64,000 nucleotides of DNA, taken from NCBI RefSeq assembly GCF_009905255.1, contig NZ_CP047602.1:744001-808000 (forward strand), read 5' to 3'. How positions within the stretch are numbered: position 1 is the stretch's first letter; every line of letters starts with the position of its first letter. The notes under the pieces were generated by a model. The model made no database searches and was not told the DNA's origin. It saw nothing but the letters and a program-made list of their open reading frames with translations. Source of the stretch: Thermoanaerobacterium aotearoense (lineage in GTDB: Bacteria; Bacillota; Thermoanaerobacteria; Thermoanaerobacterales; Thermoanaerobacteraceae). Made by a program: the position numbers and the translations under genes. This document shows positions 2,166 to 64,000 of this stretch, piece by piece.

Positions 2166-2614
2166 TTAAAAATAATAATATAAATTCAAATTATAAAAAT
2201 TTAACGCCTATAGAATATTATACTGTATATAGTAATTTTCTAACTTATACAGATATGTCTAAATCTCCAAAAGAAGGAATATATGTGTTTAAATATGATA
2301 AAGAATGGGATGAATTTAAAAAAGAGCATTTTGAGGATGTTGAATTTTTAAGTAATAATCAATTTCCTAATATTTCTCTCGATACTACAAACAAAAATCT
2401 CATTTGTGTTGTAATATATCCACCGAAACCGACATATGTTCCACAATTTTATATTAAAAATATTGAAGTGAATAATAAATACTTATATATTTACACTGAT
2501 ACAACCGGTATTGTTAAAAAGACTACAGGCATAAATGAAAATACCATTTATGTCATATTGGTTACCATGAAAAAAGGAATAATCAAAAACAATATTATTT
2601 CGCGTTTGGAATAA
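2102..2614 (+). CDS. Lipoprotein of unknown function (LP2)
   Basis: 170 residues. The start at 2102 has AGAAGGTG upstream. The signal MKRLFISLLILTLFLSGC (Cys18) is nearly identical at DNA level to those of the genes at 5269 and 6890. An Asn/Lys-rich linker follows, then a compact domain (about residues 35-170) with no family I can name. It lies 64 bases after LP1 and begins inside the duplicated unit, so its leader is shared with the gene at 5269 while its mature domain is not. Confidence 0.7.
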   Translation: MKRLFISLLILTLFLSGCGSNIKNNNINSNYKNLTPIEYYTVYSNFLTYTDMSKSPKEGIYVFKYDKEWDEFKKEHFEDVEFLSNNQFPNISLDTTNKNLICVVIYPPKPTYVPQFYIKNIEVNNKYLYIYTDTTGIVKKTTGINENTIYVILVTMKKGIIKNNIISRLE

Positions 2615-2677
2615 ATTTAAAAAAGACCATGTGATAGAGAAAGTGATTCAACTCTTTAGATTTTTTTTATTTTTTTT

Positions 2678-2803
2678 CTAATGAGTACCTATAGATGAAG
2701 ATGCAGCCAATATGGAATTTAATAAATACAGGGGGATGTCCTTACCTGCCAACGTGCTAAGAGATGTATAATTGAAAAATTCTTGCAACTCTAACACCTC
2801 CAT
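2678..2803 (-). pseudogene. Short holin-like remnant
   Basis: 41 codons reading MEVLELQEFFNYTSLSTLAG and then a non-hydrophobic tail ending at a stop. The N-terminal pattern (aromatic, then SLSTLAG) resembles the start of small phage holin-like proteins of clostridia, in which a transmembrane segment should follow TLAG; here it does not. I infer a truncated remnant. GGAGGTG overlaps the ATG, so a TTG at 2788 could also be the start. Confidence 0.3.
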
Positions 2804-3043
2804 CAAAGAAAAAGTTTAAAATTATCTATTTTCTCTTTATCTATTAAAAAGTACATGATTTTAAAAATACAACCCATTAATTGTAGTTTTTAGGAAAAAC
2901 AATCATATAGGTAAGAAAGTAAAAACAGGGCCTAACAATTTATTTGCCCTGTTCCCCATTGAAATCTATTATATTGCACATATTATAACATAATTTTAAA
3001 TTAATGTAATTTATTTTAATAATTTTTAATAATTTGTAATATT

Positions 3044-3111
3044 TGCGTAATAAATAAGGAGATGATTAGTTGTATAATATTGTTAAAAGTTTTAAGTAGG
3101 AGGAAGATTAC
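3044..3111 (+). promoter_or_regulatory. Conserved lipoprotein-array promoter/leader
   Basis: The sequence TTGTATAATATTGTTAAAA, followed by a purine-rich RBS (AGGAGGAAG), precedes the ATG at 3112. Close versions precede the genes at 2102, 5269, 6157 and 6890. TATAAT is a plausible -10; no good -35 at 17 nt is visible. Confidence 0.5.
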
Positions 3112-4203
3112 ATGAAAAGACTTTTTATTGGCTTGTTGGTTTTGACAATATTTTTAAGTGGTTGTGTAAGCAAAACAAATGATGTTATAAAGAATAACAA
3201 TGCCAAGCAAACATATGATTTTCAGTATATTAAAATGATGACACAATACAATGGTTGGGCTTTAGGAGAAAATAAAATTTATATTACTAGCGATAAAGGT
3301 AAGACATGGATTGATGTATCACCTGCTACTAAAAATAACATTTTTTCATGGTACTTTTTAAACGAAAATTATTCTTGGGTGCTTTATTCAGATGGAACTT
3401 TACATGAGACCAGAAATAGAGGCAAAAGTTGGGTTGGTTCTAAAGTTCCTTTTACAATGGGCAAGTTATTTTTTCTTCAAAAAAAAGATGGATTAAATGG
3501 TTGGATGTTAAAAGAATATGGGCCGGCTTCTGGAGATAATCCTATTGACGTGTATAAATTAATAGATAGTAAATGGAAACTTATTAGCAAAGGGAAAATG
3601 CCAAACAATTCGTTAAAAGATGATAATTCAATTTCATTTGAAGGCGAAAAGACATCTTTCATTTTTTTACCTGATGCTAAGACTGGCATTATCACAGTAG
3701 AATATCGTATACCGGGAAAATATGGATTGTACTTAAGCAGTGATAGTGGCTATACATGGAATAAAAAAGATATACCATTACTTTCAAAATTCAAAGATGA
3801 TAGCATTTTATTTTATTCTCCTAATTTTTTTGATTGCGAAAAAGAAACTATCGTAATTTTACCGGTTTGTATTTACGATATTAAGCATAATGACTATCAA
3901 ATAATTTTTATGAACAGTAGTGATGATGGCTCAACATGGAAAGAATTATCGTCATTTTCAATAAAAGAAAAACCGATTGAGATAAATTTAGTAGATAAAA
4001 ATAATTGGATTATTTTAACAAATAATTCGCTGTTTATTACAAATAACAACGGTAAAACCTGGAATAAAATTAAGCCTCCTAAGAATACAGTACAAATACA
4101 ATTTATAGATTCTAAAAATGGATGGGCTTTAGTTAAATCACAATTGGATACACATTTATATTACAGTAATAATGGTGGATCTTCATGGGAAAAACTGTTT
4201 TAA
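3112..4203 (+). CDS. BNR/Asp-box lipoprotein (LP3)
   Basis: 363 residues with signal MKRLFIGLLVLTIFLSGC (Cys18). At least five Asp-box-like motifs run through the protein (SDKGKTW near residue 60, RNRGKSW, SDSGYTW, SDDGSTW, NNNGKTW, and NNGGSSW near the C terminus), so nearly the whole mature chain should be a beta-propeller like that of the Ycf48/BNR families. It is a divergent relative of LP1/LP4, not a recent copy. RBS AGGAGG precedes the ATG. The duplicated unit (copy 2) begins at its stop codon. Function unknown; surface exposure is inferred. Confidence 0.8.
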   Translation: MKRLFIGLLVLTIFLSGCVSKTNDVIKNNNAKQTYDFQYIKMMTQYNGWALGENKIYITSDKGKTWIDVSPATKNNIFSWYFLNENYSWVLYSDGTLHETRNRGKSWVGSKVPFTMGKLFFLQKKDGLNGWMLKEYGPASGDNPIDVYKLIDSKWKLISKGKMPNNSLKDDNSISFEGEKTSFIFLPDAKTGIITVEYRIPGKYGLYLSSDSGYTWNKKDIPLLSKFKDDSILFYSPNFFDCEKETIVILPVCIYDIKHNDYQIIFMNSSDDGSTWKELSSFSIKEKPIEINLVDKNNWIILTNNSLFITNNNGKTWNKIKPPKNTVQIQFIDSKNGWALVKSQLDTHLYYSNNGGSSWEKLF

Positions 4204-5332: not shown

Positions 5333-6099
5333 ATAGTGCAAATATTCACTCAAAAAATAGCTCTCTAAATAGTAAAGTAAAAGCAGGTATTAACTCAACT
5401 TCAAAAATTAATTCTAAAGAAGCAGATTTGCAAAAGTCTAATATAGATGATAGTAATATTTATGATGTTTTAAAAACAATTAAACCTCAGATACAGAAAG
5501 CCACAAATGTGCCAGTCATATTGCCAACCTATGTTCCAACAATTGAAATACTTAATTTTCTGGGTTCTTCTGTCAGAAATAATAAATACTATGCCATTAA
5601 ATATGAAGCTAATAAAGATTATTATTTTATCGCTATAGATACTATAAATGCGATTATTCCTATTAACGATGAACGTTTAACTTATATTCCAGTCGGTTTA
5701 GACCCTCTCACATTTTTTTTGCTTTCGGCTGGTGAAAACAAATTTAAAGATGAGATTAAATATCCAATAATTAAACCTAATAAAACATTTAAAAAGATAG
5801 TAATTGACGATGTAGAATTTTTAACAGGTGAAAATTTTCCTGGACAGTTAGCATATACAAAATATAATAATTGGGATATTTATATACGAGGCTATGATAA
5901 TAATGATATGGTAAAAGAAGTTAAAAGTTATTTATCGTATTTTCGATTATTTAAAAGTGATATAAAAGAAGGAGAAATTTTTATTGAAAATAACTCTTTC
6001 CAATATATAAAATGGACATCAAAAGCAGGCTACAATTATTGGTTATATCCACATGCCAGTGATATGGACGTGATCAAAATGTTTAATAGTTTATTTTAA
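5269..6099 (+). CDS. Lipoprotein of unknown function (LP5)
   Basis: 276 residues, signal MKRLFISLLILTLFLSGC (Cys18), then a Ser/Asn/Lys-rich linker to about residue 60. The mature domain has no family I recognise. It contains a strand-rich region ending HASDMDVIKMFNSLF. The 5' leader, RBS (AGAAGGTG) and signal codons match LP2 almost base for base, but the mature parts are unrelated by eye. An in-frame GTG at 5263 is less likely than the ATG at 5269. Confidence 0.7.
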   Translation: MKRLFISLLILTLFLSGCGSNNSANIHSKNSSLNSKVKAGINSTSKINSKEADLQKSNIDDSNIYDVLKTIKPQIQKATNVPVILPTYVPTIEILNFLGSSVRNNKYYAIKYEANKDYYFIAIDTINAIIPINDERLTYIPVGLDPLTFFLLSAGENKFKDEIKYPIIKPNKTFKKIVIDDVEFLTGENFPGQLAYTKYNNWDIYIRGYDNNDMVKEVKSYLSYFRLFKSDIKEGEIFIENNSFQYIKWTSKAGYNYWLYPHASDMDVIKMFNSLF

Positions 6100-60267: not shown

Positions 60268-60341
<74 letters not shown>

Positions 60342-60360
60342 TATTTATTCAAGCGATATC

Positions 60361-60388
60361 AAGCCTTTCATGGCTTTTATTTTTTTGT
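60361..60388 (+). terminator. Terminator of the tRNA operon
   Basis: AAGCC-TTTCAT-GGCTT followed by TTATTTTTTT. Confidence 0.75.
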
Positions 60389-60437: not shown

Positions 60438-61568
60438 TTATTGCATAATTTCTATTGATTCTATAGCTTGTTTTTGAATATCTGGTAATACATGCGAATA
60501 CGTATCAAGAGTAATGCTTACATTAGCATGGCCCAATCTTTCGCTTACAATTTTAGGATTTATTCCTTTCTTTAATAGCCATGTAGCGTGTGTATGCCTT
60601 AAATCATGGAAACGGATAATTTCTATAGGAGCTTTGTTGTTCTCTTTGTTATAAGCTTTTTCGTATAGCTGAAATCTTTTAGAAATGTACTGTGGAATGA
60701 GAGGATCTCCATTTTCATGAGTGCATACAAAATTGTTATCATTATATAATTCACCTAGTAGTAATTTATTTTCAATTTGTTTTTTCCTTTGTGCTTTAAG
60801 AGCTTCTATTGTCGTTTTAAATAATACAATCTTGCGCTTGGATTTTTTTGTTTTTGGTTCTTTTAAAGTTAATGTTCCATATAGATATTGCATATTTGAT
60901 GTGACATATATAATTCCATTAATTAAATCAACATTTTCCCATTTAAGTGCGGATATTTCGCCTTCACGCATACCTGTTTCTAATGCTATTTTAACCGGAA
61001 GATATATTTTTTCATCTTTTATAAAGTCTAAAAAGTTTTTTGCGGTATCTTCATCCCATACCTTCATTTCGATTTTTGCTACTTTAGGTGGTGTAACGGA
61101 ATCAGATGGGTTGTTATATATCATTTGCCAGCCTACAGCATGTTTTAAGGCTAGATGCAGCATTCTATGTATCTTCAATATTGTACTATTAGATAATGTA
61201 CCTTCATCAACAAGTTTGCTGTAATATTGTTGTATGTGTGCTGGTTTTAAATCTTGAAGTTTTGCAATACCAATATGATTTTTTATATTAGTTGTAAATT
61301 CAGCATATCTTTTATAAGTGCTACTTGTGACATTGACTTTTGCATATGTTTCAAGCCAATAATCGAGATAATCTGCTAAAGTCATAGTTCTGGAATCTAC
61401 AAATTGTCCAGTTTCCAACTCCCTAATTAATTTGTTCATAGCCTTTTCGCAATCAGATTGCCTCTTAAATGTTTTTGATTTGTATTTTTTCTTGCCGGTG
61501 ATAGGATCTTTGCCAATATAAACAACATATTGCCAGCCATCGCCATGCTTTCTAATATGGCCACGCAT
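60438..61568 (-). CDS. Tyrosine-type site-specific integrase
   Basis: 376 residues, AGGAGGAGG before the ATG. An N-terminal arm-binding domain (RKHGDGWQYVVYIGKDP) and core-binding helices (60-160) precede the catalytic domain with R201 (TGMREGEIS), H321-x2-R324 (HDLRHTH), H347 (LGHANVS) and Y357 (TYSHV): the full catalytic set. It integrates and excises the element to its right. Its 3' end faces the tRNA cluster about 100 bases away. Confidence 0.95.
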   Translation of the reverse strand: MRGHIRKHGDGWQYVVYIGKDPITGKKKYKSKTFKRQSDCEKAMNKLIRELETGQFVDSRTMTLADYLDYWLETYAKVNVTSSTYKRYAEFTTNIKNHIGIAKLQDLKPAHIQQYYSKLVDEGTLSNSTILKIHRMLHLALKHAVGWQMIYNNPSDSVTPPKVAKIEMKVWDEDTAKNFLDFIKDEKIYLPVKIALETGMREGEISALKWENVDLINGIIYVTSNMQYLYGTLTLKEPKTKKSKRKIVLFKTTIEALKAQRKKQIENKLLLGELYNDNNFVCTHENGDPLIPQYISKRFQLYEKAYNKENNKAPIEIIRFHDLRHTHATWLLKKGINPKIVSERLGHANVSITLDTYSHVLPDIQKQAIESIEIMQ

Positions 61569-61633
61569 AGATAATACCTCCTCCTATTTGCTGTTTTTTA
61601 ATCTAAAGATTTTATTTCCACACTCAAAACATA

Positions 61634-61663
61634 GTTTCAATCCCTCATAGGTAGACTAAAAAC
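61634..61663 (-). CRISPR. Solitary 30-nt CRISPR-repeat-like sequence
   Basis: Read on the minus strand it begins GTTTTTAG, continues TCTACCTATGAGGG and ends ATTGAAAC. From memory this matches type I-B/III repeats of Thermoanaerobacter and relatives in length (30), start and the ATTGAAAC 3' end that becomes the crRNA 5' handle. Only one copy lies here, between immA and the integrase; there is no second repeat within the intergenic gap and no cas gene in the window. The gap around it (61569-61710) has no ORF. Confidence 0.65.
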
Positions 61664-61710
61664 TAACAAGTTGGAAATCATTTATAGACATCTTCAAATT
61701 ATATTAATTT

Positions 61711-62052
61711 TTATCTGCAATACTTTACAATATCCTCCGCAACCTTATCAGCTTCAATTTCTATATACTTATATTGCATGTCTAAACCTATGTAATAACT
61801 TTGCTTTGGGCAATCTTCTAAGATGTGTTTTAATTCGTGTATAAAGACTTTGCATTGTGTTTCATAATCTGTATTACCATTAAGTATTAAATAATAATTG
61901 CCTTGTCGGCTGACATATGTAAAGCCGTATATACAAGTATCAATATTTGCAATAGATACTTGTATATCATACGCTGTCATAAGCTCATAGAATGGGATTT
62001 CTTGATTTAAAAGAGCCTTCACAAGAGGCTTGTCTAAAAAGTCGATAGCCAA
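61711..62052 (-). CDS. ImmA/IrrE family metallopeptidase
   Basis: 113 residues, starting at TTG 62052 with AAAGGGGGC upstream. FIHELKHILED carries the HExxH zinc site and EIEADKVAEDIV the third ligand region. Such proteases cleave ImmR-type repressors on integrative elements to induce excision; no ImmR gene is visible in the window. It is 23 bases downstream of the ATPase-nuclease gene, in the same direction. Confidence 0.88.
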   Translation of the reverse strand: MAIDFLDKPLVKALLNQEIPFYELMTAYDIQVSIANIDTCIYGFTYVSRQGNYYLILNGNTDYETQCKVFIHELKHILEDCPKQSYYIGLDMQYKYIEIEADKVAEDIVKYCR

Positions 62053-62075: not shown

Positions 62076-64000
62076 CTAATAGCTAGGCATTACTATTTCT
62101 TTTGGTTGTACTGCCGTATTGTTAGATATATTATCAATTATTTCGTCTGCAGAAATATAATTTTTATCAATAAGTTTTTTTCTTTCTAATTCAAGTTTTT
62201 CATTTAAAAATTTATGCTTAATTTCAAATTCGGCAATTATTTCGCTCCATTTTTTTATATAAATTTTATAATTATCAACTTTATAGGCTAAGGATCTTTC
62301 ACCGTGTGGTTGTGCATTTTTTAATAATCCGCTTATATAGTTATCATAATCATTACCAACTAAATAAAACTCCCAAAACATATTTGGTGCATTAAATTGA
62401 TGTTGTTTAAGTATAACATCCATATATTCTTGAACTTGATAAAACTGTTTTGTGCCTAGCTTTATATTAGGATGTTTTAATTCAACAACAATATTATTTA
62501 TAATATCATTTTGTATGTCTTGCCTTACGGCAAAAATATCCATTTGTTTATATTTATTTTCATGCTCAATTTTTTTCTTTTCTGTTTCACCTGTTAATAT
62601 ATAACAGTATCTTCTTAACGCTTCTTCAAAATTTGGTTCTGCTGCTGTCACTAAGTGATATTGTTCTCCAAATATCCAATAATGACTTTCTATAAAAGCT
62701 TGTAGATGAGGTATTTCATTTGCATTCAAATCTTTATTAAATACTAAACATTTTAATTCTTCAATTGCTTTAAATCTATCCTTTATTAATTTTATTGTTT
62801 TAATTATATTTGTCAGTTTAGAATATTTTAGTAACTTTAGCAGTTCGGTTTTATCTTCTTCTTCTAATTCAATAATTTCATTTAGTATTTCGAATAATTG
62901 TTCTTTTTCGTCAGAATCCATAATAAGATTTAAAAAGTGTACGAATGTCTTTTTTTGTATGTCATTTAAACTAGTAAAAATTTTAGGCTGTGCCTGATAA
63001 AGAGCTGATATAAGGTCATCTAATTGAGATTTTTTATATTGATCAATAAAATTATCTTTGTCAAACTTGGGATACGCATTAGCTTTTTCTAAATTATCTA
63101 TAAGTTTTTCAGATGATTTTCTTAAAAATGATTTTCTTTTTTCTTTTAATAATTTTTCTATAGAATTCATTAAAAATTTATATTCATCGCTTGATTTGCT
63201 ATTAAATAAACATGTCTGAGAATCATCACTGTCAAAACTAAAATTGTTAAATAAACTGCTTTTGATATAAATACTGTGATAAAACTGATCAGCTTTTTTA
63301 TTAAGTGTTGTTGTTTCTTTATATTTTTCAATATCATTTGAATCTATAAAATAAAATCTTGAATATTCATTAGTTAGTGGATATCTCCATTGTACAAACT
63401 TTATTTTAAAATTGATTTTTGTTTTTTCATAAATTAATTCCTCTTTTTCCTCATCCAAGATAATATCTGAATAATCAACTTTTTTATCATTTACTTTTAT
63501 ATTGAAATTTCTTTCTTTATTCAATTCTAAAAACCAACAAAATTCTTTTTTTATAAAATCTATTATTTCATTTTCATTAATTGAGTTATGTAAATTCGTA
63601 AATGTAACTTTTGTTCCTGTATTTTCAAATGTTTCTTGGATATTTTTGTCAATATATGTAGTTAAATTTTGATCATCGATATATATTTCATATTTAATAT
63701 TTCTATTTGTAGATTTATCTTTATATATTGTTTCCCATTTAGCATTCGAGGCAAAGCAAAAGAATGTAAGTCTTCCTACGCCATTTTTACCATGCATTAA
63801 TGATACTTTTCGTTTTTCGTCAGGATTTATCACTTTTTCAGAGTCAAAAAAAGGAGTAAATTTTTCACTAAGTTTAGTTCTGTCAATACCATATCCATTA
63901 TCTATAATTGATATTTCATCAATTTCTTTTAATATATTTTTATGCAAATTAATTTCGACACAATTTGCTTTCGCATCAAAACCATTCCATATATATTCAG
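62076..64000 (-). CDS. GHKL ATPase fused to DUF4263/Shedu-like nuclease (5' end off the window)
   Basis: The reading frame is open to the window edge; at least 640 residues are visible. The N-terminal GHKL (Hsp90/MORC-like) ATPase has the N box WNGFDAKANCVEI (at 63950-63990), G1 DNGYGID, and the GKNGVGRL loop. A helical middle region follows. At about residues 430-520 (counting from the TTG at 63947), HYWIFGEQYHLV, then D470 in MDIFAVRQD and E489-x-K491 in VVELKHP form a PD-(D/E)XK pattern like Shedu (DUF4263). I infer an ATP-gated nuclease, possibly anti-phage. AT content is higher than in the core genes. Confidence 0.75.
   Translation of the reverse strand, partial: EYIWNGFDAKANCVEINLHKNILKEIDEISIIDNGYGIDRTKLSEKFTPFFDSEKVINPDEKRKVSLMHGKNGVGRLTFFCFASNAKWETIYKDKSTNRNIKYEIYIDDQNLTTYIDKNIQETFENTGTKVTFTNLHNSINENEIIDFIKKEFCWFLELNKERNFNIKVNDKKVDYSDIILDEEKEELIYEKTKINFKIKFVQWRYPLTNEYSRFYFIDSNDIEKYKETTTLNKKADQFYHSIYIKSSLFNNFSFDSDDSQTCLFNSKSSDEYKFLMNSIEKLLKEKRKSFLRKSSEKLIDNLEKANAYPKFDKDNFIDQYKKSQLDDLISALYQAQPKIFTSLNDIQKKTFVHFLNLIMDSDEKEQLFEILNEIIELEEEDKTELLKLLKYSKLTNIIKTIKLIKDRFKAIEELKCLVFNKDLNANEIPHLQAFIESHYWIFGEQYHLVTAAEPNFEEALRRYCYILTGETEKKKIEHENKYKQMDIFAVRQDIQNDIINNIVVELKHPNIKLGTKQFYQVQEYMDVILKQHQFNAPNMFWEFYLVGNDYDNYISGLLKNAQPHGERSLAYKVDNYKIYIKKWSEIIAEFEIKHKFLNEKLELERKKLIDKNYISADEIIDNISNNTAVQPKEIVMPSY

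Follow-up and report, generated by a model that had tools for sequence, protein, structure and literature searches.

The window, that is the whole stretch of DNA that was analysed (64 000 nucleotides, bases 744001–808000 of a single 2.67-Mb contig of Thermoanaerobacterium aotearoense), carries in a tRNA-Cys gene an integrated element that proves to be a ~34.5-kb tailed-phage prophage. On its minus-strand lysogeny side, a repressor gene, a GHKL ATPase gene, immA, a lone CRISPR repeat and the integrase gene follow one another in this order (Table 1), and ORFs of the prophage were assigned, by reading of their sequences, to putative portal, protease, capsid, tape-measure and lysin-like proteins. 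The ATPase encoded between the repressor and immA has a weak HSDR_N-like C-terminal part and is missing from the corresponding place in the related prophages of two other genomes (G016 and G017, see below); it is a possible defence gene. Beyond attR, a further partial att copy occurs (C1:839992-840028), perhaps the trace of another integration.

Table 1. Features of the prophage end that bears the lone repeat, and the cas6 gene of the host. Positions are those of the window; C1 denotes contig coordinates.
Feature	Position	Strand	Remarks
tRNA-Cys, attachment gene of the prophage	60268..60341	+	integrase adjoins
attL	60293..60385 (C1:804293)	.	93 bp, directly repeated in attR (C1:838757-838849)
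Tyrosine integrase, directly downstream of the repeat	60438..61568	-	PF00589, E 5.7e-28
Possible outer stem enclosing the repeat, downstream arm (weak)	61614..61625	-	GAGTGTGGAAAT
Expected 8-nt 5′ handle	61634..61641	-	ATTGAAAC; Cas6 cleavage expected between 61642 and 61641
Solitary type I-B CRISPR repeat (SRU)	61634..61663	-	30 nt, GTTTTTAGTCTACCTATGAGGGATTGAAAC
Possible outer stem enclosing the repeat, upstream arm (weak)	61668..61678	-	ATTTCCAACTT
immA-like gene, 113 aa, directly upstream of the repeat	61711..62052	-	name from motif and position; no Pfam match
GHKL ATPase gene, 680 aa, upstream of immA	62076..64000, on to C1:808118	-	PF13589, E 5.3e-18
Host cas6 pseudogene (L016)	C1:144219-144860		96-bp deletion and stop

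The repeat is intergenic, 47 nt 3′ of the immA stop and 65 nt 5′ of the integrase start, on the strand common to both genes, and under the ORF model used no ORF runs across it. Position, strand and flanks agree with the first-pass annotation, which had described an intact 30-nt repeat standing alone between immA and the integrase gene and co-directional with both. The repeat pattern, allowing up to 3 mismatches, is matched once in the window and not at all in 100 shuffles. In the SRUFinder rules (PMC10651486), a solitary repeat unit (SRU) is an intergenic sequence that shares 90% or more identity and coverage with a known repeat, reaches a bit score of 41.1 or more and has no other repeat, not even a partial one, within 100 bp. 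Scores were computed here against the array repeats of genomes G017 and G002 and of the host; the window copy reaches 29/30 identity and 52.0 bits with the first two, and 27/30 and 36.2 bits with the repeat of its own host. Aligned with the repeat, each 100-nt flank scores 16 of 30, the same as the shuffled mean (~16), and no second repeat, full or partial, was found within these 100 bp on either side. Upstream of the window copy there is no leader-like GTCGTC/GACGAC motif, unlike in a true one-spacer array. By the published criteria, the site is a solitary repeat unit.

Outside the array of the host, just one further copy in the genome lies within 3 mismatches of the 23-base core pattern, and it is degenerate; the degenerate lone repeat at C1:2368604-2368633, with 5 mismatches, stands in a chromosomal and apparently non-phage intergenic region. 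The possibility, raised by the first-pass annotation, that the lone copy is the end of an array joined by misassembly is unlikely, the sequence being one contig with phage genes continuous on both flanks of the repeat and the array lying 650 kb off with a different repeat.

The same genome contains one array of this repeat type, made of 56 copies of GTTTTTAGCCTACCTATAAGGAATTGAAAC beside a type I-B cas operon. The order at this locus is cas6, cas8b, cas7, cas5, cas3, the 56 repeats, cas4 and cas1, several of these names resting on gene order and on reading of the sequences. The lone copy departs from the host array repeat at positions 9, 18 and 22 (3 of 30) and from the array repeats of G017 and G002 at 1 position. 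The host and its genus use I-B, with repeats 1–3 mismatches away, and the reading proposed at first, said to fall if the host had no repeat within a few mismatches, stands on this point. Since each of the three changes can be found in one or another natural array within the order, recognition of the window repeat by the Cas6 of the genus is plausible. The 8 nt of the expected 5′ handle are identical in all host array repeats and in most congener array repeats; the cleavage site is presumably that known in general for I-B Cas6.

The host cas6 is itself broken. It has lost 96 bp, in frame, between two direct repeats of ATTTAAGCTTA and carries an in-frame TGA ahead of the C-terminal glycine-rich segment, while no stop occurs in the matched cas6 region of the other genus genomes (8/8). 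It follows that the repeat would be unable to trap Cas6 in this strain, where it is probably idle, and that any action as an RNA anti-CRISPR (Racr) would be confined to other hosts.

Pressure on the prophage was assessed with 1,043 spacers extracted from 18 genomes of the order. The prophage is matched by 18/1,043 of them at up to 8 mismatches and by 11/1,043 at up to 3, against 0 matches in the reversed prophage and 0 in the chromosomal flanks. The majority of the matching spacers come from G015, whose repeat is that of the host, and at most of the matched sites the PAM is NNA. Spacer 46 of the host itself matches the prophage perfectly at positions 13–37, with mismatches at positions 1, 4, 7, 9, 10 and 12, on the seed side, a pattern consistent with escape or divergence. 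Judged by these spacers, the prophage (family) is under I-B attack in the genus. The earlier suggestion that the repeat may blunt a I-B system of a host is thus upheld in part: I-B spacers of congeners do target the element, but trapping of Cas6 in this strain would fail with the broken gene.

Pattern scans between immA and the integrase gene found no terminator and, just upstream of the repeat, no sigma-70-like promoter. With neither a promoter nor a terminator of its own found, the repeat probably lies within an immA–integrase operon transcript. An outer stem around the repeat is visible at -18 kcal/mol, but it was set aside as not significant (fold z -1.33; flank duplex p 0.055).

The first-pass annotation had suggested that related elements be searched for the repeat at the same place, a lack of conservation counting against its reading; one such case was found, and the reading stands on this point too. 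A prophage fragment of G017, with an immA 93% identical to that of the window, has a lone AGTTTTAGCCTTCCTATAAGGGATTGAAAC 2 nt past the immA stop. The 22 nt that follow resemble sequence downstream of the window repeat (17/22, reached by 0.2% of shuffles), a likeness by which the two lone repeats may go back to a single ancestral site. The gene next to the G017 repeat on its downstream side is DUF4258 and not an integrase gene; directly after this repeat, at 2439-3211 (L066, G017:C18), DUF4258 and MqsA-like genes form a toxin–antitoxin-like pair. The related prophage of G016 has no repeat after immA and bears a more degenerate lone one beside a cro-like gene (L064, G016:C6, about 5976-6005), with the 3′ 18 nt largely intact and the 5′ half degenerate. 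Within ~1.5 kb of 30 integrase loci of the order, no lone repeats beyond those reported here were found.

Among viral contigs, a lone repeat 29/30 identical to that of the window was found in one otherwise unrelated temperate phage (L196, positions 3293-3322, L199 and L201), where it stands just after the first early gene. The exact 30-mer is absent from the viral contigs; searches of viral contigs and phage records for relatives of immA, or of the integrase with immA, gave none or only distant integrases, and the repeat has only weak matches in phage and plasmid records. The 3′ core also recurs in IMG/VR as other solitary copies, of which ~10 would be expected by chance by our own estimate. 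Array repeats, too, are more conserved at the 3′ end, which confounds the asymmetry between 5′ and 3′ halves in the lone repeats of viral contigs. Two viral contigs (L124:1753-1782 and L126:1064-1093) have a lone I-B-type repeat within a long outer stem, the arms of which co-vary (tcagctacc/ggtagctga versus tcaactacc/ggtagttga), a sign of structured RNA. In another (L072:5925-5954), a strong hairpin resembling a terminator comes within ~40 nt after a lone repeat, and a small array lies ~900 nt downstream.

Solitary repeats of mobile elements are documented as RNA anti-CRISPRs. In the work of Camara-Wilpert et al. (2023, PMC10651486), Cas6 processes the Racrs, which form a Cas6–Cas7 subcomplex without Cas5 and Cas8, and for RacrIF1 the inhibition resides in the fragment 5′ of the cut. 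Racrs usually have a promoter close upstream. In the same paper RacrIC1 shares a transcript with acrIC5, which it follows at a distance of 11 nt, and the discussion gives I-C, I-E, I-F and V-A as the subtypes tested. The window repeat resembles these SRUs in being lone and intergenic, of the subtype of its host, located in a prophage and above the SRUFinder thresholds, and as RacrIC1 follows acrIC5 it lies downstream of a small same-strand gene, at the 3′ end of immA. It differs from the Racrs tested in PMC10651486 in being of type I-B, in the promoter and terminator of its own that were not found and in the broken cas6 of the host.

Since the site is an SRU by the published criteria, an RNA anti-CRISPR is taken as the best reading: the prophage repeat would probably be a decoy RNA, of a known kind, that jams bacterial CRISPR immunity with Cas6 as its chief target. 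The repeat would be transcribed inside the immA–integrase mRNA; Cas6 would bind it and cleave 3′ of position 22; the 5′ fragment, carrying the bound Cas6, would nucleate a Cas7 filament lacking a proper 5′ handle, and Cas proteins would thereby be diverted from true crRNAs, as in the RacrIF1 mechanism. In favour of the Racr reading are the complete, solitary and intergenic copy, the cognate I-B repeats 1–3 mismatches off, the spacer pressure, the recurrence of lone repeats, and the location on a mobile element (the tRNA-Cys prophage) with CRISPR of the same subtype, I-B, in its host and genus. Counting against it are the promoter and terminator of its own that were not found, the fold z of -1.33, the broken host cas6, the other integrase loci scanned in the order, devoid of lone repeats within ~1.5 kb, and the G016 copy, elsewhere and with its 5′ half degenerate. 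On balance, the solitary type I-B repeat unit is most likely an RNA anti-CRISPR in Cas6-positive hosts, an assignment to which we give about an even chance of being right.

The main rival, offered in the first-pass annotation as the scar of a lost mini-array, is a functionless relic: the repeat would be what remains of a mini-array since lost, or of recombination with a host array, and would be drifting at a mosaic junction of the prophage. It is kept as likely enough because the repeat is located at such a junction, the homology of the immunity regions between relatives breaking near it, and because no promoter, nor a terminator, was found. The degraded copy at another place in G016 and the decayed one- or two-repeat arrays of G002 and of viral contigs point the same way. 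A lost array is harder to reconcile with a window copy that is intact and 29/30 identical to congener repeats, that has neither second repeat nor leader beside it, and that has near-identical lone counterparts in the unrelated phage (L196, L199 and L201); the relic is considered possible, though doubtful. One of the decayed cases, the small array of G002 (L067, G002:C3:44016), has a near-identical repeat (29/30) and, unlike the window, a leader-like palindrome, one spacer and a decayed second repeat.

Another explanation starts from the location of the repeat, which precedes the integrase start by 65 nt on the common strand, the scans of the immA–integrase interval having revealed no terminator: Cas6 could cut the immA–integrase transcript immediately 5′ of the ribosome-binding site of the integrase gene, so that in an active I-B host the cut would change integrase output and the phage would sense the CRISPR status of the host. 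Lone repeats just upstream of a ribosome-binding site also occur in L078 and L125. However, the downstream gene is not conserved, since DUF4258 follows the repeat in G017 and unrelated early genes follow it in L196, and such a switch in the integrase leader is improbable. That the repeat is a CRISPR sensor, instead of or besides an inhibitor, with Cas6 cleavage setting integration or excision by host I-B activity, is rated slightly lower again.

A phage may also carry CRISPR elements of its own. In CreR/CreA systems, degenerate repeats provide guides whose seed partly matches a cas or toxin promoter beside a PAM. A phage-borne crRNA or CreR/CreA-like guide, in which the repeat and the downstream 30–36 nt would steer the Cascade of the host to a competitor phage or to the promoter of a cas or toxin gene, could draw on the intact 3′ end of the repeat-like unit with its expected handle ATTGAAAC and on the location of the G017 repeat upstream of the DUF4258/MqsA-like pair. 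It is nevertheless very improbable: there is no second or pseudo-repeat downstream, no match with up to 3 mismatches over 24 nt was found in 24 genomes of the order, and in scans of the prophage and the cas region seed matches numbered 1 for the window (shuffled mean 3.0, maximum 7) and 13 for G017 (shuffled mean 5.1, maximum 15), both inside the spread of shuffled guides, on which a CreR/CreA-type guide was rejected. Virus-borne mini-CRISPR arrays, known from SPV1/SPV2 (reviewed in PMC11656645), likewise place a repeat of the host CRISPR type on a virus, but a mini-array consists of two or more repeats around a spacer with matches in related viruses, whereas the window has a single repeat and no spacer with a target in the 24 genomes; this candidate was also discarded.

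The preferred reading, an RNA anti-CRISPR, would if true add a I-B Racr in a thermophile, located within the lysogeny operon of a prophage family targeted by the I-B spacers of the genus. The site shows a lone repeat in a host already without cas6, and the unrelated phage with its almost identical lone repeat, together with I-B species whose cas6 is intact, would provide a clean system for the study of solitary-repeat function.
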